Below, in pieces: positions 19,863 to 53,942 of a stretch of 64,000 nt of DNA. Within the stretch, counting starts at the first letter, position 1, and each line of letters starts with the position of its first letter. Source of the DNA: Cucumis sativus (Eukaryota; Streptophyta; Magnoliopsida; Cucurbitales; Cucurbitaceae); assembly GCF_000004075.3 (NCBI RefSeq), contig NC_026657.2, positions 12,276,001 to 12,340,000 on the forward strand, in the 5' to 3' direction. The notes under the pieces are model-generated. The model saw only the letters and a program-made list of their open reading frames with translations. It ran no database searches and was not told the origin of the DNA. The position numbers and the translations under genes are program-made.

Positions 19863-21529
19863 ATGGACAAAACATCAAGCTCTCTACACATGGCGACGCC
19901 TCTACTTCCTTTCTTCTTCTTCTCCTTCTTCTCCATTTCCGCCGCTCAGTCAACCGCTTCTAAATCCTTATCCATCGCCTATATTCGGGTTCCCTTTATC
20001 ATTCTACTTCACTTTTTTCTTTCACTCCTCCATTCATGTTCTTATCTCACTCTCTTCTCTTCTTCTTTTCCTATTTTCACGTGAAGGAAGCCGGAGATTG
20101 CAATTACAGAGTCAATATAACAACTAGCTGCTCATCCCCTTTCTATATTAGTTCCGAAATCGGCGTTCTCTTTGGGGACGCTCAAGGGAATCAGGTTCGT
20201 TTTAATCTTCCCAGATTTTGCTTTTAATTTACTTTGCAATTACTTCATCTCTCGAAGCCTTTAGACTGTAGAGAATAAAATTAAATTAGTTCGTCTTCGT
20301 GGTGCTGAAGTTTCATTTAATATGGTTGTTTTGCTAATCTGCTTAGTTAAGGTTTTTTATTTTTTTTTTTATTTTTTTTATTTTAAATATTCGAGTTTTG
20401 AATTGCAAGGAAAGAACAAATTAGTGCTTTAGAACGTGTGGACTTTCCTTTTCCTTTTTTGAAATTAAAGTTTGAGGAAATATATTCATTAAGATTTCTT
20501 GAGAGTCCTTCGTCAATTTGGGATTCTCTTACACTTTCTTATATTTTATTGAATGAATGGAAATTTGATAGTAGAAACTTATAATCTGTTTTCGAAGATG
20601 TTTATTGTTACATGTAATCTATTATGTCATGGTTCGCAATCAATATTATATATCTATCACCTAAAAATAGTTTTGAAACTAAAATCAAAATTTTGCTTAA
20701 GAACAGCAGGTAGTAGCACTGTTAGTCATTCAATTCAACTTAAAAATTATATTTCGTCATTACAGTAATCTGTCATCTAATCAGAACCTAAGTACAGTTG
20801 GTGGCTTTAAACAATTGGAAACATAGATGTTCATTGAATAGATAAAATGAACAAAATACATACCATCTATGGTTGGTTTTTATTCAATACTATAATGAAA
20901 ATGAATGATAAGGACAAAAGAACTTTGTATTTATGTAGTAGGTTTGGTTTTGAACCTATTTTCTCTTAATTTTTCTTTTACAGTGGTTTGGATCTTTCCA
21001 AAATGGTTGAATTGTAGATATTTCTAGAACTCTCTTATCGAGACATTTAAAGAAGAAAAGAGAAAAGGGAAAATAAATTTCTGTTTGACCAACCTTTATA
21101 CTTTATGTTTCCTGTTCAAATTATGTTTGGATAAGAATGACTAATTTAGAATTTGAAAAGTAGATATATGAGCCAAAGCTAGAAGTTGAAAGCGGGAATG
21201 CATTTAGGAAATGCAGAAAAGACATATTTGAACTGATAGGACCATGCATAGACCAGATATGTTTCTTTTATCTTTACAAGAACGGCTCAGACAATTGGAT
21301 TCCAGAGACTGTAGAAATCTCCAGCCCTGACATTGACACTGTTAAATACACGTACAACTCCTCAATCCCGAATGACACATGGTATGGCTTTGAAGACTGC
21401 CAATACTTTCCGTCACCATCACCGCCACCACCACCGCCTCCATCAGTCCCTTCCACAGCCGGCTCTCTGCCAAGGTGGAAATGGATTGCTTCTCTCATCC
21501 CTGTGCTTTTCAGCTGCTTTTTGCTGTGA
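19863..21529 (+). CDS. ATS3-like (embryo-specific protein 3) PLAT-type secreted protein, tandem copy 2
   Basis: Three exons: 19863-19988, 20087-20194 (108 nt, as in both sister genes) and 21164-21529; 199 residues. Exon 1 ends AYIR, exon 2 runs EAGDCNYRVNITTSC to DAQGNQ, and exon 3 starts IYEPKLEVE. The signal peptide is PLLPFFFFSFFSISAA. The ATS3 domain keeps the Cys pattern (GDC, TSC, KC, GPCIDQIC) and the SDNWIPETVEIS and NDTWYGFE motifs. A short run of about seven prolines follows, then RWKWIASLIPVLFSCFLL, a GPI-signal-like hydrophobic tail. The second ATG at 19890 (MATPLLPF) gives a more typical signal peptide and plant initiation context than 19863, so the true start may be 19890. Intron 2 is long (969 nt). 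It sits 2.9 kb from copy 1 on the same strand, a tandem duplicate. Confidence 0.87.
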
Positions 21530-27388: not shown

Positions 27389-30258
27389 ATGAATTGCTTT
27401 AGAAAATCGAAGTTTGTATTCGATGCATTTCGGAATCCGTCTTCAAAGATTTTTCCCAAAGATTTAATTCAAGGTTCTAGATCAAGAATTTCCCATACTG
27501 GGTATTCGTTTTCATCTGGGAAAACTTCTAATTCTCATGGCTTTCAATCGGTTTCTCCAATTGTTCGAAGATTTGGGGAGATTGGGAGACGGTACAATCC
27601 CTTCTTCGGTGATTCGAAGAGATTTTACTATGTCGATCGCTACCGTATCCAGCATTTTAAGCCAAGAGGACCTCGGCGATGGTTTCAAGATCCAAGAACT
27701 TTATTGATTGTTGTGGTGTTGGGTTCGGGAGTTTTTATCACTGTGTATTACGGGAATTTAGAGACCGTACCTTATACGAAACGAAGGCATTTTGTACTGT
27801 TGTCCAAACCAATGGAGAGGAAGATTGGAGAGTCTGAATTTGAGCAAATGAAAGCAGCTTTCAAGGGTAAAATATTGCCTGCTATACACCCAGAAAGTGT
27901 GAGAGTAAGATTGATTGCTAAGGATATTATTGAGGCATTACAAAGAGGGTTAAGGCAAGAGAATGTGTGGAATGATTTAGGATATGCATCAGAAGCTGTG
28001 ATTGGAGCTCCTGAAGGGAGTGGCCATGAGACATTGATGGCGCTTAAAGATTCTGGGAGCGAGAAGTTGGAAGGTAAATGGTACCGTGAAGATGAGATTC
28101 TGGATGACAAATGGGTTGAGCACAGTCGAAAGAAGGGTCAGGGGTCCCAAGCAAATACCTCGCATTTGGATGGATTGAATTGGGAGGTTTTGGTGGTGAA
28201 TGAGCCAGTTGTTAATGCATTTTGCTTGCCTGGTGGGAAAATTGTTGTTTTCACTGGCTTGCTTGAGCACTTTAGAAGTGATGCAGAAATTGCTACTATT
28301 ATTGGGCATGAGGTATGTTATATGATATCATAAATCAAATGCAACAATCAAAACGAAAGCTACACATTTTTCTTCGATAATCAATATCTATATGATTGAG
28401 TTGTTTCTTGGAAATAATGCATCTATGAATAATTATATGAATGTTTGGAAGATAAATTTTGTGCTGATGAGTTCGAATTCCAATTGTTTTCTCTTATTCT
28501 TCATCTTATTGAGTCATTGACCACATATTCTATTGACATCAATATCAATATTTTTTTTCTTTAACTTGCAAGCTTTCACTTAGCTCAACCTTTATAATCA
28601 TGCTTTAATGTTTCTTACAAGATGCAATAAAGCAAATAGTTTTCTGGGCTTACGTGTTTGTGTGACAAGCTATATATAAAAGTAGGTAACTATAATGGAT
28701 AGCCATTTTAGGAATAATAATCAAGGATATAGCAACATTTAAAAAAAATTGCAAATATAACAAAATCTAAATCTACTGCCGATAGTCTATCTGTGATAGA
28801 TTAATAAAATTTGACTAATTTTGCTATATTTGCAAATTTTTTAAAATGTTGTTATATACTTAATTATTTTGAGTCTAATTGCTAAATTTGTACTACGTTA
28901 AGAAAGAAACATGCGTTACATGGAAATACAAAAATAAGACCCCTAAACACAAGAAATTTAGCATTTTAGTTTAGTAAATTTGATTTTTTTGTAGTGAATA
29001 TAGATGGAAAAATTCTAATTGTTACTACTTTTATAAAAAAAAGGTAATGAAATGCCCTAAGGCCCAAGGTTTGCGCCTTGAGGCTTCACACAAGGCACGT
29101 GTCTGAGGTCTGCCTTATTTTGTGAGTCTTGCCTTTTGAAGGCAAGGTGCCAGACCCGTACCTTCCAGTTCAGGCTATTACCTTTGGATCTTGTTTTCAT
29201 TAATTAGGTGGCCCATGCTGTGGCTCGACATTCTGCAGAGGGTATTACAAAGAACCTGGGATTTGCCGTTTTGCAACTCATCCTTTATCAGTTCATCATG
29301 CCTGATATTGTCAACACTATGTCAACTCTGTTCTTAAGGCTTCCTTTCTCTAGAAGGTCAGTTCAAAGTTATTTTCTTTATATCTTTATTCATTATGTTG
29401 GTTTAGTATAGTTCATGGTAGGTTTTCTTGTTTCCTTGGTTTCAATAGATGTGTATGTGCACCCAAACATGTTATTTTGTCAACTTCATGCTATCTCTTA
29501 TCTGTTCTATGTAATTCTGTTCTTCACGACATGGAAAAAAAATGGTTGTATAAGGTAAATCTTCATTTGATGAACAAAGGCTTGATGGGAATGGCTGTCA
29601 ACAATTATCTAGCATTACCTTAGCTATAAAAATTTCTTTTTGGTTACTTACAAGTTAATCTCAAGACATCAAATTATCAGGCATTGGTCATCTGTAGAGA
29701 AATTTAACGGCCTAGGACATTCCTCCTTTCGGCTTTGCTTTCTTAATCAAAAGTCTTATAAGAAATTCTAGTTCAAGCATCTAAAAATACTTGAAGGGCA
29801 TTCACAATGATTCTTGATGAGGTGGATTCTGGATTAGTTTAGAGTACGTACTATTTTTCCCTTCAGATGCCCAACCATTATCGAGTGAAAAATGTCGTTT
29901 GTATCTTTATAATTAAAACATAACAATTGAATTCACTGAAGTACTCTATCCATCTACAGATGGGCTGAGTTTGCAGTCTAATATTTTCAAACATTTCTAT
30001 GGCTTCAGGATGGAAATGGAAGCAGATTACATTGGTCTGCTGTTGATTGCCTCTGCTGGATACGACCCTCGGGTTGCACCCAAGGTATATGAGAGGTTGG
30101 GTAAGGTGACGGGTGACTCTGCCCTGAGAGATTATCTTTCAACTCACCCAAGTGGAAAGAAAAGAGCTCAGTTACTTGCTCAAGCAAAGGTTATGGAGGA
30201 AGCTCTTTCTATTTACAGAGAAGTGAGAGCCGGACATGGGATTGAAGGCTTCCTATAA
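27389..30258 (+). CDS. OMA1: OMA1-type mitochondrial M48 metalloendopeptidase
   Basis: Three exons: 27389-28312, 29208-29356 and 30009-30258; 440 residues, close to the Arabidopsis protein. OMA1 is a zinc endopeptidase of the mitochondrial inner membrane that cleaves substrates on membrane stress. The N-terminus (MNCFRKSKFVFDAFRN) is basic and Ser-rich, as expected for a presequence. A membrane segment lies at about 104-121 (TLLIVVVLGSGVFITVYY). The peptidase core has NAFCLPGGKIVVFTGLL and then H307-E308, where exon 1 ends, completed by V-A-H311 at the start of exon 2. The third zinc ligand is probably E362 in the M48 EAD motif (MEMEADYIGLL, exon 3 start). The C-terminal DYLSTHPSGKKRAQLL is also family-typical. 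The ATG is the first in the open frame. In Arabidopsis OMA1 (At5g51740) lies between KEA5 and SBT1.3, as here. Confidence 0.93.
28700..28890. mobile_element. AT-rich MITE-like inverted repeat, copy B, in OMA1 intron 1
   Basis: The arms 28713-28766 and 28819-28870 are inverted copies of each other and match the copy at 24311-24490 (aaggatatagcaacattt..., gctatatttgca...). The loop has gatagtctatctgtgatagat. It lies inside OMA1 intron 1 in non-coding DNA. Confidence 0.65.
29041..29175. repeat. GCCTTG/CAAGGC-rich repeat fragment in OMA1 intron 1
   Basis: This stretch is clearly GC-richer than the intron around it, with repeated inverted words (aaggcccaagg, cgccttgaggc, caaggcac, gtcttgcc, gaaggcaaggt). 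It looks like a fragment of a common plant dispersed repeat with self-complementary GCCTTGAGGC units. It ends about 30 bp before the exon 2 acceptor. Confidence 0.45.
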
Positions 30259-33646: not shown

Positions 33647-35101
33647 ATGGAATCTGCTCCCGAGGTGATCAGCCATCGTAACACTGTCCTCTCTTCCACT
33701 CAATTGTTCAGTCACCTTCACTTGATTTTCCTTCAGCTTCAAAATTTATTCTTTCTAATTCTCATACTTTTCTTGGAAACTTATATTTTCTTAAAAGGAT
33801 GGACTCCCATTCTCCATATTTTCCTCCTACTTTCTAGTTATGCCATCTTCATCTTCATCATCAAACCTTCACCATCAGTCTATTTAGTTGACTTCTCGTG
33901 CCTCAAACCGCCTACCTCCTGCACAGTTCTTTTCTCAACTTTCCTTCAAAATGCAATGTTGCTTGATACCTTCAATAGCGATAGCCTCTGTTTCATGGAG
34001 AAAACTCTCAGATCTTCTGGACTAAGTGAACAAACATGTCTTCCTCCAGCCTTACACTTCATTCCACACAAAACTCATCAACAGGAATCCATCAATGAAG
34101 TTCATATGGTTCTATTTCCTGTCATGGATGACCTTTTAACCAAAACCCATCTCTCTTCTTCTGACATTGATATTCTTATTGTCAATTGCAGTGGCTTTTG
34201 CCCTTCTCCTTCTCTGTCATCCATCGTTATCAACAAATATTCTATGAGAAGTGATATTAAGAGCTATAATCTCTCTGGGATGGGGTGCAGTGCAAGTGCA
34301 GTAGCTATTCAATTAGCTGAAAATCTTCTTCAAGTTCATCAAAACTCATATGCAGTTGTGCTCAGTACAGAAATTTTGTCGACCGGTTGGTATGCAGGTA
34401 ATGAACGCTCTAAATTGTTCATTAATTGCCTATTCCGAATGGGCAGTGCAGCTATTCTGCTCTCTAACAAAACACGAGCGAAAGAATCTTCAAAATATAA
34501 ACTAATTAAAACGCTTAGAACACAGAGAGCTTTCGATGACAAAAGTCACCTTTCGTCCATACGCGAAGAGGACAAGGACGGAAATCTTGGCGTCACTCTG
34601 ACAAAGGGTGTAGTTCAGATCGCCGGAGAAACTCTCCGATCAAACATAACGATTCTGGGTGCTTCAATTTTACCGTTGTCCGAGAAACTACGACATGGGA
34701 CTTCGAGGCTAAGAAAGCGATTCTTGGACAAATCACAAGAAATTTACATTCCGAATTTTAAGACGGCGATTCAGCATTTTTGCTTGCCGGTGTCGGGGGG
34801 TGCAGTGATAAGGGAGATCGGGAAAGTGCTGAAGCTTAATGATAAGGATGTGGAAGCAGCATTGGCGACTCTACATAGATTCGGGAACCAATCGTCTTCT
34901 TCGTTGTGGTATGAACTTGCTTATTTGGAAGCTAAAGAAAGAGTTGAAAAGGGAGATAAAGTTTGGCAAATTGGGCTGGGCACTGGGCCCAAATGTGTTA
35001 GTTTGATTTTGGAGTGTATTCGGCCCATTTATGGAGAATATAATAATGATCCATGGGCCCAGGTAATCGATCAGTATCCTATTTTAGGCCCATCAACTTA
35101 A
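33647..35101 (+). CDS. 3-ketoacyl-CoA synthase-like protein, tandem copy 1 (atypical active site)
   Basis: Intact intronless 484-residue member of the KCS (FAE1-type) family, whose canonical members condense malonyl-CoA with acyl-CoA in the ER to elongate very-long-chain fatty acids. Two N-terminal membrane segments (about 26-50 and 54-76) precede SVYLVDFSCLKPP. The FAE1/KAS-type domain has active-site Cys in NLSGMGCSAS (C214), and the C-terminal part has HRFGNQSSSSLWYEL with H410 and the catalytic Asn N414. Atypical: the usual HFCIHAGGRAVI motif reads HFCLPVSGGAVI, so Pro381 (codon 34787-34789) replaces the catalytic His. The conserved HTVRTH reads KTLRTQ (Gln293), losing another conserved His. 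The reading frame is undamaged. The subgroup is uncertain; I would not give it an Arabidopsis KCS number. Whether it condenses acyl-CoA is open. Confidence 0.88.
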   Translation: MESAPEVISHRNTVLSSTQLFSHLHLIFLQLQNLFFLILILFLETYIFLKGWTPILHIFLLLSSYAIFIFIIKPSPSVYLVDFSCLKPPTSCTVLFSTFLQNAMLLDTFNSDSLCFMEKTLRSSGLSEQTCLPPALHFIPHKTHQQESINEVHMVLFPVMDDLLTKTHLSSSDIDILIVNCSGFCPSPSLSSIVINKYSMRSDIKSYNLSGMGCSASAVAIQLAENLLQVHQNSYAVVLSTEILSTGWYAGNERSKLFINCLFRMGSAAILLSNKTRAKESSKYKLIKTLRTQRAFDDKSHLSSIREEDKDGNLGVTLTKGVVQIAGETLRSNITILGASILPLSEKLRHGTSRLRKRFLDKSQEIYIPNFKTAIQHFCLPVSGGAVIREIGKVLKLNDKDVEAALATLHRFGNQSSSSLWYELAYLEAKERVEKGDKVWQIGLGTGPKCVSLILECIRPIYGEYNNDPWAQVIDQYPILGPST

Positions 35102-38100
35102 CTCTACAAATCTCTCGACTGTCACACTTTAACATGAAGTATCGTATTGAGATATGTATTAGACAAATATGGGCTTTTGAAAATTTTTAGCAGTAGGCTA
35201 ATGTGACCATAAATAAATTGAGATATATGGCATAGAAAAAATTTGATATTGTCGTGTGATGGGGAATTTTTCCAGCTGTTGAGTAACCAAAAATGAAAAT
35301 GAGTATATGATTTAGACTCATGTGGCTAAACTCATCGAATCAAGGAAATCATCTTTAATGTTTTTGAGTCAATAGGTTATACAGAACATCAAGTTAAACT
35401 CTGATGTGAATGATTATGATCGATCCCTTCTTTCTTTTTATTTATTTATTAGAAAACATTCAATACAGATAATAATGGTTAATGGTTTTCACTAAAAAAA
35501 GTCATAGAAAAAACGTCAATAATATTTCTATTTGTCACAAATATCTTTAGAGACAGAGAAAAAATAATTGCCCCATGTGGAATGTTAGTGAATCCTTGGT
35601 TGCTAAAGACTTATTGTTCAAACTTTAACCATTGTTACACTTTTCGACACAATTATACATTTATCGCTTTCCAGTCACAAATGTAAAAACGCAAGAGTTT
35701 GTGATGCATAAATGAAAGTAGTGGCAATTCCGTAAATTTTATATAGGAGTACCGGACATTATATACTAAACACACTAAAAAGTTAATAATTTTAGTTAGA
35801 TAACAAATAGGGTTGGAAAATAAGTTAGAGTTTATCTTATATGCGTTTTTTTCTTTTTCTTTTTTAAAAAAATCATCTTTCTTTTAGTAAATCAAATTAT
35901 ATTCTTTTTAGAAAACCATTGAAATTTAGGAAGAAAAATAAAATTATCTCCATTTTAGAAAATCAGTCAAATATAGGAAAAAAATTGATATTCGAAAAAA
36001 GATATGTGAGAAAATAAAATTATAAGAAATTTGATATTTGAAGAAAAAAAGTATTGACACATAGAATAAAAACTATTTCGTAAAAATAATTATAGCTCAT
36101 AACCAAAGGTTGTGTAGGGGCTTCATACTATAGCAGTAGAAACATAATTAGGCAAAATGAAGCTTAATTTAATATATATTATAATCTAATATTTCAAAAT
36201 TAATATTAAAATACAAAATTTCATAATGTGAGAGGCACGTAGCCGTGTCAAGGACGGAATTATAAAGTGTCATTGTAACTCTAACATATTGAATTTGAAT
36301 GTCTTCCAACTACTTTTAAGAATTAGTTATTATTTCAAATAACAATCATTTTCTTCTCCAAATTATTTTTTTTATTTTCCTAAATTATTTTTATTTCAAA
36401 TATCAATAAGTTTGTTTCATATTTTCTAAAAAAATATAATTTGATTTTCTAAGAAGGAAGATAATTTAATTTTCTAAACGGAAGATAATTTGATTTACCA
36501 GAAGAATAATTTGATTTTCTAAAAGAAAGATAATTTTTTAAAAGAGAAAAAAAACTATATAAGATAAATCCCTAATTTATTTCATAACACTCACCTATTA
36601 TCTAATAAACAAATATTATTTTTTATTCTTTTTATACCAGATAATTTTTTCCGTTCATCGTTAGAATACAAGTATCGTATCAATTTACCGGTAGAGTGAT
36701 CATAATTTTCGATCTATATGATAAATGGTAATACTAATTTTGTAGAATAAACATATGAATATGGAATAATATTTTAAAAGGAAACAACAATAGAAACCAT
36801 AGAGTTATCTTGTTTGACAAATATGTATTAAATTAATTAATATTTTTTTTAGTGTTTGTTATATAGTGGCCCAGTTTAAAATTTTCTGGATCTGCTGTTT
36901 GCTTTTGTCCTTAATAAATCCCTTCCGTAGTAAAAGTCATTATAATAATGCTGTAGGTTACGCTAAAAGTTAAAACTCTGCATAATGCACAGTAATTTTG
37001 CAACATTTTTGTTTTTCTTTTTGTCACATGAATAATGTGGCCATTTTTTATTTCGTCCCAGTATTTTCCTATTTTTTCTTTTAGAAAAACATGATTCGTT
37101 TAGTACTTTTCTTTTCTTCCATCTTGAATAAAACAAATAAAATTATACAGTAAATCATCATACATGATGACATGCTAATATTTGTTCTTGATTTAATCAA
37201 TCCAAACTTCAAAGTTTACAAAATAAGGAACCCACACATTGTATATATGTTCACAAAAATCTTAACTTACCAATACAAATACATGTATTAGGACTTTATA
37301 TAAAGTTTCCAAACACACGATATATCTTTCAAACTAGAATGTGTACACAAAATATTTTTATCCATCCTAAAAAAGCATGTGATTGATTCATTATTTGTTG
37401 GGTAGACATGTGGTTGATTTATTGTTGTGTCTACCCACCAATAATGAATATATTCTTAAAAAGGTTAGATTGGAAGTTGAAGATTGTTGATGTCAAATTT
37501 TGATCAAAGGAAACACACACTTAATCTCTACGAAACAACCGCAGTAAATTTATACTTAGTAAAAGAAAAAGCGGCCAAACAAAGAAAAATGTTTTTGATA
37601 ACCAATTCAATAAGTGAATTATTTTATTGAAGTCAAATCAAAACTTTATATTTACCTCTTCATGTGCTCAAATTTTACCTTGTATATAACTAAACTACAT
37701 AAGTTACGTTAACAATTCTTTTTATAAATAATTTATGCATTTGAATATAACAATTTTTATTATTGATAAAATATAAAATTTTATTATATTTTGTAAAAAT
37801 TGAAAGGAGTTTGAGAATTTTCACAAATTTTCTTTCCAGTTAAAATGATATGAAGTTAGTTAAAATGGATTTATTTAAAAACAATAGAGACATGGATTGC
37901 TCTTTCCTTATTTTGAACATAAAAATAAAAAATATAGAGAAGACTTTTAGTAGGGATCAGAGCTTAAGGCCTCATTGAATACTGCCCATTCTACCATGTT
38001 CTAGAGAGACACTTGCAATTACTTCACCTCATATTATTGTTCTTCTTCTTCTTACTTTTTATTTTTTTTATTTGGATAAAAGTATTTTTAAAAATTTTTA

Positions 38101-39037
38101 TTAGTATTTTATGGAGGAAACTTCATTTTCCAATTGGTGTATGTGACTATGTGATGTCAGAAATTAATTGAAAATTTCTTATTTGGTGGGAAAAGTTAAG
38201 TTCTCTCACTTTCCCAGCTATCCGTAGAACAACCAACCAACCCACAATTTTAAAAATATATTATTATTCTGCACAACTCTTAATGCCTAAGGTTCAAATA
38301 ATTTCAGCAAATTTGAATTAAAATTATGTGCGTTATTGTAACTTCTAGGTATGATGCATTGCATTTTTCTTTTTTTAGGAGTACATTTATGTAATTTATA
38401 CGTTAACTTGGTTTTTAAATTGAATTCATAATGTTCAAAATAATAATTTCATATGAGACTTTTTTTTTTATTAATTTAGTATTGTTTTTATATCAGTTTA
38501 CTATATGTATCAGATTAGGATTTTTTTAAAAAAAAATAGATGAACATATATGTTTTAGATTTCTGTTATTAAAAAAATATTTATGAAGCTAAATATAACT
38601 AACAATCCATGTTTAAAGATGCTGAACTTTTAACTAATTTCAATCAATGAAACAAATTCATAGGTATAAAAAGGATGAACTACATCTTTTATATCTTAGG
38701 TTTAACGGTTATGATCGTGAGGTTCTATGGATAATTTATAATCGATAAAAAGGTCAAATCTTTTTCATTAAACTTATATATATGCTCGAATTGAAAGATG
38801 AATAATTACATTGTGGCATGTAAATAAAATTTACATTGATATATCTTCTTATTGATCAATCACAATTTTCATTCGTAAAAAAAGTTAATAAATTCATTCT
38901 CAATAAATCTATACGGTACAATATTCAAAATTTCTTAAATAATTAAAAAAAAGTTATATTACCTGGATAGGTTGGATAGTATTTAATTCTTGTGGGTTAA
39001 AATAACTTTTAAACTTTTGCATTAACCATGCAACTAA

Positions 39038-39077
<40 letters not shown>

Positions 39078-42000
39078 ATAAATTTGATAGTTTGTCCTAT
39101 ATATATCACAAAGGTCTTCTATAGATGTAGCTCACATATAAGTTTAATTAGTTGTCATTTAAAATAGATTTCATTTCATTTCGATAAAAAATAAAGAAAG
39201 TTGGATTTGAATCTTCGACTGAATGCAACAAGATGTTACCATAACCTAAACTAAAATAATAATGTTGAATTATAAGGAGTTGGAGTGAATTACTCAAATA
39301 TTAGAGGTTGATCAATGGATATGTTTACATATCAGTAGGTAAAATACAATTAATTGTTTGATAGAACTTGACTACAAAATCACGTTAGCGTGGACTACTC
39401 TTTGTTACAAAATTATTTAGATGAAGGGAAGGCGTTGACTCAGGGGTAGGTAGTTGGGTGGAGTGATCTCAGAGAGTAGATGGATGTATAGAGATCACAG
39501 CATTAACTGTAAATAAAGAGATAAGATAATGGGTGGCTCAACTGGGAGAGTTGAGCCTCTCCCTTCATTATTTCAATTTATTCTTCTTTATTAAAAATAA
39601 AAAATTGTTTGAAAGTTGTATAGGATTCATTAAATGATATGCCACGTACTGATAATTGTGTATTATTGTAGTAATAAAAAGACATTTGATATTATACAAT
39701 AATTTTGTAACAACTAATGGAAGTATTAGATTTATGAGTTATACGAGTCCTTAAAACAAGCTTTAGGGAAATGGTGCAAAAATGAGAAATATATATGTAC
39801 ATTCAACTTTTAGAGGATGATTTATTTAAATATTGTATTTTTGAAAACTTATTAAAGATCTGTTGGAGAGAAAATGAAAAGGATGGAGTGTTCAACATGT
39901 TGAAACCTTTTAAAAATAGAGAGAAAAAACAAAAAACAAAAACAATGGGACACTCAGTCCATTGAAATTATTAGAAAAAACAGTAAAACTTTAAATAGTT
40001 TTGAAACTGTAATATTTCATTATTAACTTTTGAAAGCAATAATATTAATATATATTTTTCTATTTGGATCTCATCCCACATGAAGGGAATAGTTTGCGTA
40101 TAGAATAAATTGTTTTTCACCTACCTCTAAATAAGAATTAGAGTAAAAACTTTAGTACTAATTGTTTTATATATAAGAAAAAGTAGTAAGATGTATTTCA
40201 ACCTTTCTAGCATCACTTATGTTAGTCCATTCCACTGAATTATCTTATCATAAAATATTATAGAACAAATTTAATATTTTTTTAATATTTTAATACTTTT
40301 TATACGAACAATGAAAATGGATACATAAAATATAGTTATTTAAGTATTGTGATCTCCCCAACTACCGGAATTTTTAGAACCAATGTGATCTCCCATAAGT
40401 TGATGAATGACATTTTTTATTCACTTTTTCCTTCCATGAATCATGAATTACTAGGTTGACTTTGAATCCACATTACTTTTTCCTTTTTTTCAATATCATC
40501 CTTACTCTCATTACTAAAGACCATAGGATTATATATATGCAATTTTTATTTCGGATATTTTTAAATGTGATAAAATAAACTAATATTATTGACATATTTT
40601 TAATATTTGCGGTCCGAAAAGAAAATCAATTATTTTTTCAAAATTTTATATTTGTCCTTACTACTTTATAACCATTTTTCAGTTTTTTTTTGTTTGCATC
40701 ATTCTCTATTCTCTTCTTTGTGATCTTTCACAGTATTTTTTCTTTTTTTGTATTTCTTCTTTTCATCTGTCTTTTTTTCTTTTTTTACAATTTTTTTTAT
40801 TTTTTTAAAATCATTATTTGGTTCAAGATCGTTGTTTAGATTGTGGGACAAATATAAAATAATAAAGTTAGAATATTGAATAATCAAATCTAAACCATAC
40901 AAATTTAAACAAAAATAATAATAATAGCCAAATTTAAACGATTATTTATCAAATATAAACTATCATTGTTTTTTCAAATATATTATGCATGTCGAATGTC
41001 AAAATCAAGCCATTTTTTAAAGTTTTTAGGCATGTAGATTTTTTTTCATTTTTGAAATTGTTTTATACGAAATAAATATTTTACCTTTCTATTTTGGAAA
41101 AGGTCTATTTTCAACAAATATCTATCCATGTTTATATAAAATTTAAAATTTAAATCCCATAAACTCAATTTGCTTTTTTAACATTGAATATATATTAATT
41201 TTTTATTCAAAAGAATCTCAATGTAAAATTAGTTTAATATTTTTGTTACCTTATCATATGTTTGTTAAATAATTTAAAATATTCTCTTCATCAATTCTTC
41301 CCTTTGTAGTTAACAAATAGTTTAATAAAGATTTAATGATTTGCATACTTACGAATTAATTGATAGAAATTGTCAGTAACAAAAAGTGAGTATTTAAAGA
41401 AAAATTGAAATTAAAAGTGAAATTATGAAAGCTAGTATCTAACTTGACACAAAACCCTAACCTAAAAACCAATTTATAGCTTAAAATTATGGGGTTTCTA
41501 TACAAGTAGCCTAAAAGACACAATGGCCTTTCATTTTACACCAAAGATAGGCCCAGTGAGTCACTGACCATAACACCCTCCTTAATTTCTTGTCGTTTTT
41601 TTATTTTATTTTAAAAAGTAAAAAAAAAAATTGTAACAACATAAATATGAAAAAATAAAAAATAATTCATTGCATTCATTTCAAATTTGACTCTACATAT
41701 TTATTATATTTATTGTTTTATTTTATGTTGATTTTTATTTTATTTTCCATATCAATTTTATTTATTATCATTTGTTATCAGTTTGTTATATTGATTCTTT
41801 ATATGATTTTTCTTTTCATTCCTATGTTTTGATGTTGCTAGAGGTTTTTTTTAATTTATATTTTTAGCTTTTTTATTTTTTATTCTACAAAGTCTATAAT
41901 TTTTCGAAAATATACTGTAACTTTTTTTTACAAACATATTAAAAAATGAAAATACTCAAGGATGGTTTGAGAATTTAAATAATTGAAAATTTAAAACAAT

Positions 42001-42680
42001 TGTGGAATAATATAGTTAGATTATGCCATTCCTCTAAACTTTTCTAAAATTATAATATTTCGACATTGTGACCAAATCCATAACGGTTAGATACAACCTT
42101 TTGAAACTTAAAAATCAAATAAAACTGACACCAACTCCTACGTGGTGCTAGTTTAAACTTAATCCATATTTAGTTCACTTGACTCTTCTTCACTTAGCTC
42201 GTCACATAAATATTGATTATGTTCATTGTCGGCATCCCTTCTTGCATTGCCTTTTCTTTACAAGGAGTTGTTTGATTCCTTCTGCTTCTTCACGATATCT
42301 CAAAATGCCTACTCAAGCTTAGTTCTACTAACTTCAAATTTTAATTACAAGAAACCCCTCCTTCATTAGTACGCGAGTTTCACAGCTCTTTCTCCCTTTA
42401 GGGATTTCAATCAAAATTTCACCTCCTCCTTTCCTTTATTTAAACTTGGCCCGCTCGTGTTGATTGTTGCACTCAGTGGAAGACCCCTCCTTGTTAATGT
42501 CTTGTTTTGCTTTTTCTTGGCATTCCTTTGACACTTCAAAATCAAATGAAATCTAGATTAAAAAAACATAAAACAATCAAATAGTATTACTTTTCTGTCA
42601 AATATTGGCTACCTCAGTCAACATTTAAGTGTATTAGTAACTGATATCAAAATTTTGAATTCCCAACCCTCGACAGTGTG
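35102..42680. other. 7.6-kb AT-rich intergenic region between KCS-like copies 1 and 2
   Basis: No gene recognised. Noted contents: repeated aattatctt/gattttctaa words at about 35870-36550 (short degenerate repeats), an (AT)17 run at 39041-39074, a B-box-like complement at about 39196 that may be a SINE scrap, and a GGCTCAAC/GTTGAGCC stem-loop at 39535-39557. At 42060-42480 there is a less AT-rich stretch without an open frame, possibly the upstream region of copy 2 or an old element. Confidence 0.5.
39041..39074. repeat. (AT)17 microsatellite
   Basis: Perfect dinucleotide run of 34 bp. It is a likely length-polymorphic marker and has no other signal. Confidence 0.9.
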
Positions 42681-42911
42681 TGTGTATATATATATATTAT
42701 CTTCGCCTTTTTCTTTGAACAACACTACTCTCTCATCGAGTATTTAACCCATCTCTTCGCTTGAGTAACTCATTCAATTATTTCTCTCTTCATTCTCTAC
42801 CTGGCATTATATTTCAACTATCGGTGTTGCCTTCTTCTCTAAAACCTGAAGTCCATACCTACATCAGATTCCAATTTCTCCATTCCAACACAAATCTCTC
42901 CTCCATAACCA

Positions 42912-44384
42912 ATGGAATCTGCTCCAAAGCTCAAGCAAAACCATGGCTGCACTTTCCTCCATTCCACTCAATTGTTGATAAGCGTTCTCTCGTCTTTCTT
43001 CCAACTTCAAAACTTCTTCATTCTCATTCTCCTCGTTTCCATGGAAACTTACATTTTCTTAAATGGATGGAATCCCATTTCCTATTTCTTCCTCCTATTG
43101 TCTTCTTATACTTTCTGCAAATACATCATTAAGCTTCCCATTCTGAATGCTCCTCGTCCTGTCTATTTAGTTGACTTCTCATGCCTCAAACCACCAAGCT
43201 TCTGCAGGGTTCCCTTCTCTCTTTTCCTTGAAAATGCAACGTTGATGAATACTTTCGACAACAACAGCCTCAGTTTCATGGCCAAAACTCTCAAATCTTC
43301 AGGACAGAGTGAAGAAACATGCCTCCCTCCAGCCCTGCATTTCATACCACCCAAAACCCATCAACAAGAATCCATTCATGAAGTTCATATGGTACTATTT
43401 CCTGTCATGGATGATCTTTTAACCAAAACCCATCTCTCTCCTTGCGACATTGATATTCTTATTGTTAATTGCAGTGGCTTTTGCCCTTCTCCTTCCCTGT
43501 CATCCATAGTCATCAACAAATATTCCATGAGAAGTGATATTAAAAGCTATAACCTCTCTGGAATGGGGTGCAGTGCAAGTGCTGTTGCCATTCATTTAGC
43601 TGAAAATCTTCTTCAAGTACACGAAAACTCAAATGTTGTTGTTCTTAGTACAGAAATTCTATCAAACGGTTGGTATGCAGGAAAGGAACACTCCAGACTA
43701 ATCCTCAATTGCTACTTCCGTATGGGCGGTGCGGCTATTTTACTCACCAACAGAAAAGAGGCGAAACTTTTTTCAAAATATAAACTATTTAAAACCCTTA
43801 GAACACAGACATCCTACGATGATAGAAGTTACCTTTCAGCCATACGCGAAGAGGACAAGGAAGGAAAACTCGGAGTCTCTGTAACAAGAGATACGCTTCA
43901 GGTTTTCCCCGAAACACTCCGTATCAACATAACCCTTCTGGGTTCTTCAATATTGCCGCTGTCTGAGAAACTCCGGTACGTCGTTTCGAGGCTACGGAAG
44001 CGATTCGTGGATAAATCGCAAGAAATTTACATACCGAATTTCAAGAGGGTGATTCAACATTTTTGCTTGCCGGTGTCGGGGGGTGCGGTGATAAGGGCGA
44101 TAGGAAATGTGCTGAAGCTGAACGATAAGGAAGTGGAAGCGGCATTAATGACTCTGCATAGATTTGGGAATCAGTCGTCATCGGCGCTATGGTATGAACT
44201 TGCGTACTTGGAAGCAAAAGAAAGAGTTGAAAAAGGTGATAAAGTTTGGCAAATTGGGATGGGTACTGGGCCCAAATGTGTTAGTTTGATTTGGGAGTGT
44301 ATTCGGCCCATTTTAGGAGAGTCCAGTAATGATCCATGGGCCGATGTGATCGATCGGTATCCCATCTTAGGCCCATCAACTTAG
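42912..44384 (+). CDS. 3-ketoacyl-CoA synthase-like protein, tandem copy 2 (atypical active site)
   Basis: Intact intronless 490-residue KCS-family protein. Its N-terminus (MESAPK..., FFQLQNFFILILLV, METYIFLNGW) resembles copy 1. The segment around CLKPPSF.RVPFS.FLENATLM instead matches copy 3. Active-site Cys is C220 (NLSGMGCSAS). H383 (HFC), H416 and catalytic Asn N420 (HRFGNQSSS) are kept, while the catalytic His position is Pro387 (codon 44070-44072) and the conserved His of RTH is Gln299. It differs from copies 1 and 3 in the 285-345 region (TSYDDRSYL, VFPETLRINITLLGSS). The RAIG after GGAVI is REIG in the others. The ATG chosen is the first in the frame with a CCAATGG context. The same caveat on enzymatic activity applies as for copy 1. 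Confidence 0.88.
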   Translation: MESAPKLKQNHGCTFLHSTQLLISVLSSFFQLQNFFILILLVSMETYIFLNGWNPISYFFLLLSSYTFCKYIIKLPILNAPRPVYLVDFSCLKPPSFCRVPFSLFLENATLMNTFDNNSLSFMAKTLKSSGQSEETCLPPALHFIPPKTHQQESIHEVHMVLFPVMDDLLTKTHLSPCDIDILIVNCSGFCPSPSLSSIVINKYSMRSDIKSYNLSGMGCSASAVAIHLAENLLQVHENSNVVVLSTEILSNGWYAGKEHSRLILNCYFRMGGAAILLTNRKEAKLFSKYKLFKTLRTQTSYDDRSYLSAIREEDKEGKLGVSVTRDTLQVFPETLRINITLLGSSILPLSEKLRYVVSRLRKRFVDKSQEIYIPNFKRVIQHFCLPVSGGAVIRAIGNVLKLNDKEVEAALMTLHRFGNQSSSALWYELAYLEAKERVEKGDKVWQIGMGTGPKCVSLIWECIRPILGESSNDPWADVIDRYPILGPST

Positions 44385-44926
44385 ATCTTAATGGCATTAC
44401 TAATCTACTTTTATCTTCTTCTTTTTCTAATTAAGCAAAATAGCTTTACCTCAAGCATCTTAAAAGTATACTTAAAGGGTGAATTCTGCAATTAGTCCTG
44501 TGGTTCTTCTATTTCTGTCTTCAAAATCCAAAAAAACGTTTATATGTCTAATTATCATCCAAATATATCTATTAGTAGAAATAACCTTACTCATATAATC
44601 GTCCTATATTACTTACATTTTAATGTCATTGAGATGGAAATAGAATTGAATTGCTCTAATTAGGTATTAGAAAATCACATTAGTCATGTCCAACATTTTC
44701 ACCATAACAACTTTAGTTGATTTTGTTATAAAGATGACAATTATCATTGTGAGTTTAATGATGATAGAATGATTATATTCAAGGAGTTTATGAGTTATCT
44801 AGAGTGAAAATAAGTAACTAATATTTTGAAAAATATTTAACTAAAATTAAGTATAGTGAAAGTGACATTGTGTGTTATCATTGTTAATAGTTGAATTAAT
44901 GGTAGAGTAATTGACTATGAAGGAGT

Positions 44927-45250
44927 GGAGTGGGCTAAAATAGCTCACTCCATGGTTGCCTCAAGGATTATCATAATCCTAGAATTATGACTCTTTTATT
45001 TTTTTCCTTATTTCTCCTATTCCTCACTCCCTTCTTTCACTATTCCTCACTCCCCTTCACTATTCTGCCCCCCTCATCTTTCTTATATGTTATAATTCCT
45101 TACTCTTCCATTTCATTATTTCTCATTTTCAGAAACATAAATTATAATAACTCGAACTATAATAGTATGCATTCCAAACACAAACTATAATAGCTCCATA
45201 AACTATTATAACTCATAAAATATAATAATCACAAATTATAATAACTTACT
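44927..45250. mobile_element. MITE-like element with actataat repeats
   Basis: It begins with a near-perfect hairpin (9 of 10 pairs) at 44927-44951. After about 180 bp it carries repeated words aactataatag, cataaactattataactc and aaattataataactta at 45137-45250. The repetitive, self-complementary AT-rich structure is typical of non-autonomous DNA transposons. The exact ends and target-site duplication were not resolved. Confidence 0.35.
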
Positions 45251-46250
45251 TCACACTCAAATATCCTCTTTATTTTTATCTATGAGGTTTGTCATTTGTA
45301 TAAAATTAACTGTGATTAAAGACCATCTAACATGTAGGAGATAATGAGTTTAGGTCCCTCATGCAATATGTCTCTTTCCTTTTTCCCTTTCCCCATCTTT
45401 TCATTGTAATCGCCTCCGCTGTTGTCATTGATTTATTTTCTTCCTTTCATTCAAGTCTAAAAAAAATGTGAACAACAAGGAATGTGATGATCTTAAACTA
45501 GTCAATTAATCACAAGAATTCTCATGCAAAGAAACACAGTAAGTGAATATATTTTTTAAATTTTAGAGTAAAAATGTTAATAAAAAATCTATAATAAAAT
45601 GGTATTAAATAATAAATTTAAGATTAATTGAAAATTAAAAAGTTAAAACTATTGAACATGAACTAAAACCAAAGTTGTATTTTAATAAAAGAATAAAAAG
45701 AATAGTGTTTGAGTTGAAAAAGAAAAATAAGTGTTTGAGTGAGAAGATTGAAGAGCACATTAAAAGGCTTCAACCCATCATGTTGGGAAGGAGAGAGTAC
45801 ACATTCTTAATAACCCTGCCTTCCAATTCGCCAATTTGAATTCTCACCGACTTATTCATCATTTCTCATTTAATGCCAAAAATAAATTTGGTACTTCCCA
45901 ACTATATTTTCAACACTTATATATACACGCACCTTTTTTCATAGCTTTGTGTTATTGTTATTCACAGCGTAGGAAGAAATCTTTTCATTCTCATTTTGAG
46001 TTTTTAGTATAATTTTGGACATACTGATATGTATCTTGACAAAACAAAAAGGCATTGGTTCAAATCCAATTTTAATTTTAAAAAACTAATCAATATTTGG
46101 TATCCTTTAATATTTTAATTAGTATGGTGTGTGTATATATGTGTGTTGTTTAGAAGAGGAAAAGTCAATTATTAAGGAGCTTGTAGGATTTTTATTTGAA
46201 AAAGTGTTAAAATTTTGAAAGGTAATTAGAATAGGTAGAAATTTTAGGAA

Positions 46251-46400
46251 AAATAATTAAGTGTACAATAATATTTTAAATAAATTACAAATATAGGTTT
46301 TTCAACCTGTTTTACATGAGTAATACACATGTATCAATGATAGATTTTAACAAATTTTGTTATATTTACAATTTGTTTAAAACGTAAGATATTTTTAATC
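46251..46400. mobile_element. AT-rich MITE-like inverted repeat, degraded copy C
   Basis: The left arm 46251-46295 (aataattaagtgtacaata...aaattacaaatatag) is mirrored by 46353-46400 (aattttgttatatttacaatttgtttaaaa...). It has the same arm words and a gatagat loop as the copies at 24.4 and 28.8 kb, but with more substitutions. Confidence 0.45.
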
Positions 46401-47629
46401 TAATTTCTATGTATGAAACTATCCTAAATTTGTCCAATTAATTTAAATTTAGCAAAAGTAAGCTGTTCAAACGAACGTGAAAATGAAAACAAGAATTTGG
46501 AAAAGGAAGAAAAAAATAAAAATTGAAAATCAAACCGAACAAAAATCAATCATTTGAAATTTATAGATGTACACGATACACCAACTACAGCGGTTGGTCA
46601 TTTAGTTTAGTGTAGTCTTTCCATTGATATCGGTTATCTTAAAGGAATGATTGTAAGTTCATTGGTCGATCCATATAAAAGAGAAAAAGAACTTCCGTCT
46701 TGGACTCTATCGGTTCTTTGCTCTCCATCCTTCACAAGACTAACTACTAGAAAAAGAGAGAAACTGACATATCTGATCGACTAAAATAATTTTTCGTTGG
46801 TTGGCTGCCCTACATAGTAGTCTGCGGATTCCAATGTTAGTTTTTTTTTTTTCTCTCAAAATAAATACTGGCCAACTGATGTATACCTCTAGTTGAAACT
46901 TTATACTTTTCTAACAACATTGAAATTAGGTTCATATTCAAAACATGACTCCAGAAAATTAGGATTCAATTAAAAAGAGAAACTAGGAACATTTTCAAAG
47001 TCTTTTACCAAAAAGAAAAAATCCAAAGAGCATGAAGAAGGTTGTATCATATGTTTAATTGGGTATAACATCCTTTCCAATTACATCTCTAATATTTTGA
47101 GAGAGGAATTTATTTGATAGCAAAAACAAAACCATGAAGACTGGTGATTAATAATATCATATCATTTTTAAAATATGTGAAAAATACAATGTCTTTAAGA
47201 GTGTTTGAGCAAGAAGTGATAGACTTTCAAAGAATAATATGATTGGAGGTTGAGCTTTGAACAGGTGGTGTGCTCCAATGACAAAGAGTTGACCAGAATA
47301 AAAGTTAGATGGATACGTGATTATTCAAGGGACGCTAGAGTGGTTTCTTCTTCAAGGAACACAAAACTCAAATTTTAACCTAATAGATTAAAAAAAAAAA
47401 ACCTCAAAATTGATAGCTGTTTTTTGTTTTTTAACTCACTGTCAATAGTAATTACGTCCGGGTGATGCATGGCATCAAATTTAAAGTTCCCACCTGTTGA
47501 CTGCCAGCGGCACATCGAGCAAAGCAAATTAGCAAACTTGGAGAGCCCGTTTCGACCTTCATTTAACATCCACTTTCATTTCTTCAACACGATTCAAATT
47601 CCCATTCCTCCATTGCCATCTCTTCCCCA

Positions 47630-49051
47630 ATGGATTCTTCTCCCAACCATTTCCTCCTCCGTTATTCCGCTCAATTACCTCATACCCCTTTCATTATTCT
47701 CATCCCCATACTAACTTCCATTGAAGCCTATCTGTACTTCTCACATGCATGGCATCCCCTTTTCCATATCTTCCCACTGTCTTTCCTTGTCGTCCTCATC
47801 ATCTTCAATCTTGCTTCTCCTAATTCAGTGTACTTAGTTGACTTCTCATGCCTCAAACCACCAAGCTTCTTCAGGGTTCCCTTCTCTACTTTCCTTGAAA
47901 ATGCCACTTTGATGGATATTTTTGACAGTGAGAGTATCAGTTTCATGGCCAGAACTCTCAAGTCTTCTGGACAGAGTGAACAAACTTGTCTCCCTCCAGC
48001 CCTGCATTTCATACCACCCAAAACCCATATACAGGAATCCATTAATGAAGTCCACATCGTACTGTTTCCTGTCATGAATGACCTTTTAACCAAAACTCAT
48101 CTCTCTCCTTCCGACATTGATATTCTAATTGTTAATTGCAGTGGCTTTTGCCAATCTCCTTCTCTGTCATCCATAGTCATCAACAAATATTCTATGAGAA
48201 ATGACATTAAGAGCTTTAATCTCTCTGGAATGGGGTGTAGTGCAAGTGCTATTGCCATTCACTTGGCTGAAAATCTCCTTCGAGTTCACAAAAACTCAAA
48301 TGCAGTCGTGCTTAGTACAGAAATTTTATCGAACGGTTGGTACGCAGGAAAAGAACGCTCCAAATTGATCCTTAATTGCCTATTCCGAATGGGCAGTGCA
48401 GCTATTCTGCTCTCTAACAAAAAACAAGCGAAAGAATCTTCAAAATATAAACTGATTAAAACGCTCAGAACACAGAGAGCTTTCGATGACAAAAGTTACC
48501 TATCAGCCTTACGCGAGGAGGACAGGTACGGAAAACTCGGCGTCGCTCTGACACGGGATTTACCCCATGTCGCCGGAGAAACTCTCCGATCAAACATAAC
48601 GATTCTGGGTGCTTCAGTTTTACCGTTGTCGGAGAAACTACGGCATGCGGTTTCGAGGCTAAGAAAGCGATTCTTGGACAAATCGCAAGATATTTACATT
48701 CCGAATTTCAAAACGGTGATTCAGCATTTTTGCCTGCCGGTGTCGGGGGGTGCGGTGATAAGGGAGATCGGAAAAGTGCTGAAGCTTAACGATAAGGATG
48801 TGGAAGCGGCATTGGCGACTCTTCATAGATTCGGGAACCAATCGTCTTCTTCGTTGTGGTATGAACTTGCTTATTTGGAAGCAAAAAGAAGAGTTGAAAA
48901 AGGAGAAAGAGTGTGGCAAATTGGAATGGGCACTGGGCCCAAATGTGTTAGCTTGATTTGGGAGTGTATTCGGCCCATTTCTGGAGAGTCCAATAATGAA
49001 CCATGGGCCGATGTAATTGATCGGTATCCAAATCTAGGCCCACCAACCTAG
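47630..49051 (+). CDS. 3-ketoacyl-CoA synthase-like protein, tandem copy 3 (atypical active site)
   Basis: Intact intronless 473-residue KCS-family protein. The N-terminal membrane region (MDSSPNHFLLRYSAQ..., FIILIPILTSIEAYLYF) is unlike copies 1 and 2. From SVYLVDFSCLKPPSF on it is close to both, and from about residue 265 it is nearly identical to copy 1, including long stretches of matching DNA. C203 (GMGCSAS), H366, H399 and N403 are retained. Pro370 (codon 48737-48739) replaces the catalytic His, and Gln282 replaces the conserved His after RT. Frame and conserved core are intact. It lies 3.2 kb downstream of copy 2 on the same strand. It could be a working elongase with altered chemistry, a regulatory partner of a canonical KCS, or inactive; sequence alone does not decide. 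Confidence 0.88.
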   Translation: MDSSPNHFLLRYSAQLPHTPFIILIPILTSIEAYLYFSHAWHPLFHIFPLSFLVVLIIFNLASPNSVYLVDFSCLKPPSFFRVPFSTFLENATLMDIFDSESISFMARTLKSSGQSEQTCLPPALHFIPPKTHIQESINEVHIVLFPVMNDLLTKTHLSPSDIDILIVNCSGFCQSPSLSSIVINKYSMRNDIKSFNLSGMGCSASAIAIHLAENLLRVHKNSNAVVLSTEILSNGWYAGKERSKLILNCLFRMGSAAILLSNKKQAKESSKYKLIKTLRTQRAFDDKSYLSALREEDRYGKLGVALTRDLPHVAGETLRSNITILGASVLPLSEKLRHAVSRLRKRFLDKSQDIYIPNFKTVIQHFCLPVSGGAVIREIGKVLKLNDKDVEAALATLHRFGNQSSSSLWYELAYLEAKRRVEKGERVWQIGMGTGPKCVSLIWECIRPISGESNNEPWADVIDRYPNLGPPT

Positions 49052-52000: not shown

Positions 52001-53840
52001 TGATCAATTGAAAGTTTAACCATACAATGTAGAATTATTCTTTTTAATTGGATAACATAGTTGCAAAACTTCACAAATAGTCAAAATTGTGTTGTAATCA
52101 ATTTGGTATTTTTTTTTATTATTATTGATTTAAAAAAGATGACCAACAAATGCGTGTAGATTGACCTTAATACATAGACTAATGTTTTAATTTTTGATTT
52201 ATCGAGAGGGGTGAAGAAGTCCAAAAATTATTTTCTTCTTGGCTGTTTTTAAGATAGTAAGAAGTAAGATATTTCTTATTTTAGGTTAGACCATTCATTC
52301 ACATCCATTCAACTAAAATTTATACAACAATAATAATCCACGTACGTTTAACGTCGTTGATAGGTGTTAAATAATAGAGACTAGATGTAAAAATGAGTTT
52401 AGGTACATAATAATTGTTATAACTTTTGTACCTAAACGTTGAAGATACGACGACCAATTTAACCCCTGTGTTAACAGAAAAATAGATAAGGATTAGACTA
52501 AAATATACTTGAGATATTAAAGGTGAAGCTGAAAAAGAGGGCAAATTGTGGTGGGAAATGGACATAATTCCACACATAGCTAACCAAACCCTCTATTGGT
52601 TGTGTGTTTAGTTTTAGATTTAGGGCCTTAATTGTGGTATAGGATGTCATGTCATAGTCACAAGGGGGATTAGAAGAGGATTGATAATTAATAAAATTCC
52701 ATTATTTTCTGATTATGCCACTTTAGAAGTGTCTCAAAAGAAGATTTAAGTGAAATGTTACCCTTAAAAAGTGATATGATTTGACTCACCTAAGTTTCCT
52801 TTTACACGTTAAAAATTATGCCTACTGTACATTAAACATATATTAGTTTTCTTAGATATCTCAACTCTTAAAACAGGAAAGTTAATCCTAATTTTCTATC
52901 TCAACTATAAATGTTGTGCATTTCTTTTATCTATTAAGGATATGGAAAAATACTATAAAAATATAATATTCCTTTTATTTATGCTATTATTTTGAAAAAG
53001 ATTCACATTACGACTAATGAATGAGAATAGTATTTATATTAGAGTTGGTACGTATAGATAAACTTCCCAAAATGTTATTCTATAGGCTTCATCCTAATAT
53101 AAATATTGTTATACTTAAATATTCAATGTTTTCTCCACTTTTGGCCCTTCTTTTTGCACTCCAAATTCCCACACAATATTTATTCGATATCTTTATTTAG
53201 ACTAAAATTTTAAATTTCATTCCATTTATGTAATTGTGAAGTTTTTTCTATGTACTTATATTTTAAAAGTTAATTTCTATTGAATTTGGCTTAATAATAA
53301 TGTAATAAGTGAATATGCTTACAAATTTTATAGTAAAAATATTTATAGATGATAAAAAATTAGGGAAAACTCAACCAAAAACTAAAATTCTGACATTTGA
53401 AAATACATAAAATAAAATTAAACAAATCCAGAATATAGCACAGAGATGACAGTTTAACAACGTTTTACATTAAATCCTACCTTTTTTTTCAAACATTAAA
53501 ATCTACCTTTTTTAAAATAAAAATAAAAAAACTTATGGTGTAGATATTATTCAGTAGACATAGAAATTGTCGGTTTTGAATGTAAAAGTTGAAATTTCTC
53601 TACTCCTAAAATTTGAAAAAGTTTCAATTATTTACTCTCTCTCTTTTTTTAAATTTTTTGTTTCTTTCAATTTTTCCATTTGAAACAATAAGAAAAGAAG
53701 TAAAAAAAGATAATAATAATAAATGAAGAATAGAAATTCATAATTATAATGGTCATGGCAATAAAAACAGGGGACCATTATACATAACCAAATTAACTTC
53801 TAACCACCAATACTGATACCCTTCTTCAATTTTGGCATTC
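49052..53840. other. Intergenic region between KCS-like copy 3 and the subtilase gene
   Basis: No gene recognised. It is AT-rich, with (AT)11 at 50213-50234, an (AAT)10 run at about 50563-50592 and homopolymers. At 50811-50950 there is a possible very degraded MITE (tatatttgcaa..., ttttgttatattt). Short open frames look like chance. Confidence 0.5.
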
Positions 53841-53942
53841 ATGAAACAACCACTCTTCTTTATTACACTCACCTCCATTCTCACAACTCCCCCATTCCCT
53901 CTTCATTTTTCACAAACACACTCCTTTCCTCTGTTCCCAAAA

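Follow-up and report, generated by a model that had tools for sequence, protein, structure and literature searches.

The spectrum of very-long-chain fatty acids available to a plant for wax and suberin is set by its 3-ketoacyl-CoA synthases (KCS). Investigation of a 64,000-nt stretch of the cucumber (Cucumis sativus) genome (G000:C3:12276001-12340000, the whole of which is referred to as the window) revealed three KCS-like genes, A, B and C, in which the histidine of the Cys-His-Asn catalytic triad is replaced by proline, encoded by CCG in each copy, and the cysteine and asparagine are kept (Table 1). Each of the three frames has one terminal stop and no internal stop (3/3), and the intact frames and the Cys, Asn, Pro and RTQ residues that an earlier note on this DNA had claimed were found exactly as described in all three open reading frames (ORFs).

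Table 1. Coordinates of the three KCS-like genes and of their motifs around the substituted triad position; window positions, motif coordinates being computed from each ORF start.
Feature	Position	Strand	Description
KCS-like gene A	33647..35101	+	484 aa, single open frame; Cys214, Pro381 replacing His, Asn414, Gln293
KCS-like gene B	42912..44384	+	490 aa, single open frame; Cys220, Pro387 replacing His, Asn420, Gln299
KCS-like gene C	47630..49051	+	473 aa, single open frame; Cys203, Pro370 replacing His, Asn403, Gln282
HFCLPVSGGAVI motif, gene A	34775..34810	+	residues 377-388; Pro codon CCG at 34787-34789
HFCLPVSGGAVI motif, gene B	44058..44093	+	residues 383-394; Pro codon CCG at 44070-44072
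HFCLPVSGGAVI motif, gene C	48725..48760	+	residues 366-377; Pro codon CCG at 48737-48739

Conserved motifs and comparison with solved KCS

Several other conserved motifs are altered in the trio: RTH reads RTQ in all three copies, GNT reads GNQ and FGSGFKCNS reads (L/M)GTGPKCVS. The catalytic cysteine in GMGCSA, the catalytic asparagine (N424 of FAE1), the histidine of HFC, located four residues before the lost histidine, and the histidine of LHR are present in 3/3 copies. All three proteins match PF08392 (FAE1_CUT1_RppA) over full length, with E-values of 5.6e-105 to 2.1e-108 and 351.3-362.5 bits (cut-off 27), and also the C-terminal domain PF08541 (29.7-32.5 bits; cut-off 26.6). Hydropathy peaks of at least 1.6 were detected in the first 130 residues of 3/3 copies, with two clearly separate peaks only in A, although this is a weak measure for membrane segments because the cucumber KCS genes L012 and L013 score none by it. 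AlphaFold2 models of A, B and C have a mean pLDDT of 35.2, too low to support an active-site geometry.

A search of solved structures, which covered B and C, aligned most of the length of gene B with 9lgy (phmmer E 3.3e-142) and most of the length of gene C with 9uu3 (E 9.5e-140). The proline of gene C stands opposite the histidine of HFCIHAGG in 4/4 distinct solved KCS sequences (9lgy, 9kqg, 9uu3/9uu5 and 9uu4), which look like about two proteins, 9kqg being seemingly a shortened 9lgy and 9uu4 departing from 9uu3 at the Cys alone within the region aligned. In gene C, both Cys and Asn align with those of the solved KCS, with the exception of 9uu4, which has Ala at the position where 9uu3 has Cys. 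The earlier note had held that this proline in an active KCS would speak against a changed function of the trio; proline at the catalytic histidine position is absent from these four sequences (about two proteins).

The triad position in the cucumber KCS family

Scanning the 226.6 Mb, 88-contig genome with PF08392 gave at least 26 matching stretches and, after exons had been joined, 15 KCS genes, comprising the trio (gene C being L008 in the locus list), seven others with a single open frame and five with introns. The other PF08392 loci comprise L014, which is a broken KCS copy, and two loci, L015 and L016, labelled as chalcone-synthase-like from their translations. For comparison, PMC11941547 lists 14 cucumber and 15 melon KCS genes. 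A pattern search for relatives in other genome contigs and in viral contigs gave 43 and 19 matches, respectively, none of which was confirmed.

The complete Cys-His-Asn triad is present in 11/12 KCS genes outside the trio, the twelfth, L007, having proline at the histidine position as well. The trio forms one clade with support of 100/100, the stem of which is long at 0.84 changes per column; its placement among the other cucumber KCS is not resolved in the tree. Since the trio is monophyletic, the histidine loss is explained by one ancestral event. Three independent losses in A, B and C were also considered, and are ruled out by the 100/100 clade and by the mosaic structure of the copies described below.

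All 11 complete-triad genes agree at 77 positions; of these, 14 are changed in A, 12 in B, 12 in C and 8 in L007. In a leave-one-out control, each of the 11 complete-triad genes changes 0-10 of 77-87 such positions, compared with 12-17 when A, B and C are scored against the corresponding sets of ten genes. The number of changes in the trio is only moderately high; it is the kind of change that stands out, including the triad histidine, the histidine of RTH, the glycine two residues beyond it, the position following the triad asparagine and three positions in FGSGFKCNS. Neither the triad histidine nor that of RTH is altered in any of the left-out complete-triad genes (0/11). The histidine of LHR is not universal, being Tyr or Asn in 4/11 of them. 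Compared with canonical FAE1-type KCS (KCS18/FAE1; 9lgy, 9uu3), the trio thus shares homology over most of its length, both Pfam domains and the Cys and Asn, but differs by Pro at the His position, by RTQ and at 12-14 of the 77 invariant positions.

The second proline-bearing gene, L007 (L007:1432-2841; G000:C5, about 4.448 Mb), is an open frame of 469 residues that reads HFGIPPTERAVI around the triad position. Like the trio it retains the Cys and Asn; unlike the trio it also retains RTH, has HFG in place of HFC and belongs to another clade. It groups with L009 (98/91) inside a clade of L006, L007, L009, L012 and L013 (100/100), which we take to be KCS3/12/19-like and outside which the trio falls. 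Because L007 sits in this different, well-supported clade, its His-to-Pro change is independent of that in the trio. The ratio of nonsynonymous to synonymous substitution rates (dN/dS, omega) for L007 is 0.063, a rough value given its branch length of 1.99. In the table of PMC11941547, melon CmKCS1 (MELO3C023819, chr10) has 469 residues and 52,910 Da, compared with 469 residues and 52,741 Da for L007, and from these values the two genes are probably orthologous.

Regarding the trio itself, PMC11941547 places the melon genes CmKCS9, CmKCS8 and CmKCS7, all intronless and encoded on the + strand, in this order along chr06. The table of that paper gives them 483, 490 and "437" residues (484, 490 and 473 in A, B and C) and masses of 54,015, 55,397 and 52,932 Da (54,151, 55,342 and 53,079 Da in A, B and C). 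The length of 437 residues printed for CmKCS7 in Table 1 is probably a misprint, as a mass of 52,932 Da would correspond to about 473 residues. On the table values, CmKCS9, CmKCS8 and CmKCS7 are probably one-to-one orthologues of A, B and C, respectively. Subfamily I, to which the three melon genes are assigned, consists of 12 genes and is found in Cucurbitaceae only (PMC11941547), and the trio is a tandemly duplicated, probably cucurbit-specific clade of KCS paralogues. After 48 h of saline-alkali stress, CmKCS7, CmKCS8 and CmKCS9 were reported to be induced 13.56-, 9.40- and 22.65-fold (PMC11941547). The words histidine and active site are absent from the main text of that paper. The literature searched, mostly freely accessible papers, yielded no report of histidine loss in a cucurbit KCS, from which absence from print does not follow, and a search on KCS as pseudoenzymes gave no paper.

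Selection and sequence exchange

Omega values were obtained with a purpose-written codon model and with Biopython counting and pairwise methods (including NG86 and YN00). For the core of the trio (407 codons) omega was 0.229 and a value of 1 was rejected (2ΔlnL, twice the log-likelihood difference, 124.0), as it was on each branch (omega 0.26, 0.19 and 0.26; 2ΔlnL 25.97, 59.28 and 15.92). Over all 469 aligned codons omega was 0.319 (2ΔlnL 97.6), with branch values of 0.336, 0.228 and 0.454 that again each reject 1 (2ΔlnL 20.01, 55.68 and 10.02). By the counting and pairwise methods, omega lay at 0.18-0.28 in the core and at 0.22-0.40 across the full length. The canonical control is a single recent tandem pair, L012/L013, with a full-length omega of 0.165-0.195, the pair L002/L011 being saturated and giving no dS. 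The trio core is about as constrained as L012/L013, and the full length somewhat less so. A comparison of omega on deep branches was discarded, as branches of up to 12 substitutions per codon were saturated and the resulting values (canonical 0.012, stem 0.014) were unusable. In a neutral simulation with substitutions only and no indels, run at 0.15-0.25 substitutions per site, 0-3 of 1000 frames stayed open per copy and distance.

Thus, the proposal of the earlier note that selection maintains these proteins is borne out by the core omega, the neutral simulation and a melon trio matched in size and order, and the dN/dS near 1 that it had associated with pseudogenes was not found in the core. 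Two results weigh against this picture. The 62 N-terminal codons, the expected site of the membrane anchor, have an omega of 0.92, not different from 1, which may reflect poor alignment or weak constraint; and the full-length omega of the trio (0.22-0.39, NG86/YN00) exceeds that of L012/L013, so that constraint may be somewhat relaxed.

The three copies appear to have exchanged sequence, by gene conversion or unequal exchange. At 345 two-against-one sites, the A-C tract holds 88/134 compared with 44/211 outside it, a contrast reached in 0/300 permutations, and in the resulting mosaic the A-C tract covers the central and 3' portions of the genes, with A-B and B-C similarity further 5'. Within 1500 bases on each side of A, B and C no convincing likeness among the flanks was detected (best matches of 17 and 27 bases, E 0.068). 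The broken copy L014 (G000:C3:12532500-12535500) is a decayed member of the trio family located about 210 kb off toward higher coordinates, outside the window. It is closest to gene B, with 78-82% nucleotide identity, and contains stops and frame shifts, the match ending at about residue 303, a picture of a neglected copy that contrasts with the open frames of A, B and C.

The mosaic copies and the decay of L014, together with the N-terminal omega near 1 and a full-length omega above that of L012/L013, would be in keeping with A, B and C being slowly dying duplicates whose function is gone and whose frames stay open by chance or through gene conversion between copies. We consider this very improbable, since omega is well below 1 on each branch for both the core and the full length, under neutral simulation no more than 3 of 1000 replicates retain an open frame for any copy and distance, and gene conversion leaves the excess of synonymous change unaccounted for; in addition, size-matched melon genes are annotated and have reported expression changes (PMC11941547). 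Pseudogenes as such are ruled out by the open frames, the core omega of 0.229 and the neutral simulation, with the N-terminal and full-length omega remaining as caveats.

Possible functions of the histidine-less proteins

According to PMC3493540, KCS18/FAE1 lost nearly all activity with every mutation tried at the catalytic Cys or at His391, in agreement with the earlier note, which had stated that mutation of this histidine in FAE1 abolishes activity. Because the KCS18/FAE1 His391 mutants are nearly inactive, the trio is very unlikely to carry out normal condensation. It could be envisaged that the trio still encodes working KCS in which a nearby histidine or the new glutamine takes over from the lost residue and elongation is normal, and retention of the HFC histidine four residues earlier and of the LHR histidine, as well as the low core omega of 0.229, are consistent with this. 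The near-abolition of activity in all tested H391 mutants (PMC3493540) argues against it. Since, furthermore, two histidines shared by all 11 complete-triad genes are missing together and the histidine is present in the four distinct solved KCS sequences, such takeover appears improbable.

Thiolase-fold relatives with other chemistry exist, and the trio might alternatively encode altered enzymes in which the retained Cys, with the Asn and the HFC and LHR histidines, runs thioester hydrolysis, acyl transfer or a condensation without malonyl decarboxylation. Retention of these four residues in 3/3 copies alongside joint changes elsewhere in the conserved motifs, and the strong constraint on the core, are in keeping with such a role. 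However, the lost histidine normally serves thioester polarisation and decarboxylation across the KCS/KAS III/chalcone synthase superfamily, for which proline is no chemical substitute, and the LHR histidine is itself variable among the complete-triad genes. As mutation of the histidine also nearly abolishes KCS18 activity (PMC3493540), altered chemistry seems rather unlikely.

A different possibility is suggested by KCS proteins without elongase activity. Arabidopsis KCS3 is described as having no activity and as inhibiting KCS6 (PMC12944000, PMC13247533, citing Huang et al., 2023). In yeast, 12/21 Arabidopsis KCS had no effect, including KCS3 and KCS12; KCS10 and KCS15 were inactive in yeast yet effective in Nicotiana benthamiana, and evidence of activity is cited for KCS16 and for a Medicago KCS12 (PMC9928185). 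Because of the cases of KCS10, KCS15, KCS16 and Medicago KCS12, absence of an effect in yeast alone is not proof of inactivity. Similarly, CER2 acts in elongation without the catalytic histidine of its family (PMC5489795). By analogy, the reading that we prefer is that the trio represents condensation-dead KCS subunits that modulate active KCS, the same role as that of KCS3, although we regard the chances for and against this general modulator role as evenly balanced. The earlier note had left altered chemistry, substrate binding without condensation and a regulatory partner side by side; precedent favours the regulatory partner over the other two.

Under the modulator role, the triad histidine would have changed to proline once, in the common ancestor of A, B and C, with loss of decarboxylative condensation, and the RTQ, GNQ and (L/M)GTGPKCVS changes would have accompanied it, leaving the overall family sequence and both Cys and Asn intact. 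The proteins would presumably stay in the membrane of the endoplasmic reticulum via their hydrophobic N-termini, and they would be predicted to fold and pair like KCS and to join the elongase. Active KCS could then be modulated through mixed dimers, through competition for KCR, HCD or ECR, or through binding of acyl-CoA without extension, with a regulatory effect, including its sign, that may be comparable to the restraint of KCS6 by Arabidopsis KCS3.

Besides the two omega results given above, several points weigh against the modulator role. It is read from sequence and precedent, and a pure scaffold would not need the strict retention of Cys and Asn. Orthology with the melon genes is drawn from table values (order, strand and size). 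Regarding expression, CmKCS8 falls to 35.5% of the control under microplastics (PMC11941547), and stress induction is therefore not general. Finally, KCS3 seems, as far as can be told, to be no case of histidine loss: in cucumber the clade includes L009, whose triad is complete, and inactivity of the KCS3 type therefore need not be a matter of the histidine. The trio also differs from KCS3 in its position, lying outside the KCS3/12/19-like cucumber group in a separate 100/100 clade of a tree that contains no Arabidopsis sequence. Its probable melon orthologues are placed in the cucurbit-only subfamily (PMC11941547).

An overlapping version of the modulator role is a positive partner, in which each protein would pair with an active KCS and set its chain length in the manner of the catalytically dead KS-beta (chain-length factor) of type II polyketide synthases. 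Dead partners occur in the same fold superfamily, KS-beta and PqsB being examples in which a dead paralogue pairs with an active one; pairing of the trio is only proposed, and partners of the KS-beta/PqsB type lose the nucleophilic Cys, whereas the trio keeps the Cys and loses the His. Having diverged, A, B and C could each serve a different chain length. CER2-LIKE proteins determine the chain length of KCS with no BAHD catalysis involved (PMC5489795). Against this, product and pairing would both have to be supposed, the sign of an effect is not readable from sequence, and the known case, KCS3, is an inhibitor (PMC12944000, PMC13247533); a positive partner is thus an unlikely though not negligible version. 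Returning to modulation in the wider sense, it may tentatively be proposed, as a possibility somewhat on the unlikely side, that cucurbits have evolved private condensation-dead KCS subunits, pairing with active KCS in the way of chain-length factors and tuning the chain length or amount of wax or cuticle components, with stress-responsive expression, and that His-to-Pro change, in L007 as well, is a repeated route to KCS regulators.

The earlier note had regarded the trio as a candidate for an undescribed system. This holds in part: since a non-catalytic KCS regulator, KCS3 acting on KCS6, is already in print, the trio is not a categorically new system, and what is new is a maintained, probably lineage-specific clade of His-less KCS together with the independent His-to-Pro change in L007. 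The melon family paper treats KCS members as enzymes (PMC11941547), but part of the KCS family in this crop lineage probably elongates nothing, and expression surveys that count the trio as elongation capacity would mislead. With KCS3 on KCS6 as the precedent found, the trio and the independently changed L007 offer clean natural material on whether dead KCS subunits are general regulators of the elongase.

Regarding the neighbourhood of the trio, it is flanked by a peptidase M48 gene (27389-30255, the second exon being read from the translation) and a subtilase gene (53832-56264). Genes of these two kinds are, we assume, neighbours in Arabidopsis (At5g51740/At5g51750), which would suggest that the KCS cluster was inserted between them. 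Two ATS3-like pieces with Pro-rich tails (16517-16972 and 21164-21526, of which the first was scanned against Pfam) lie on the same strand as each other and are probably a tandem pair.

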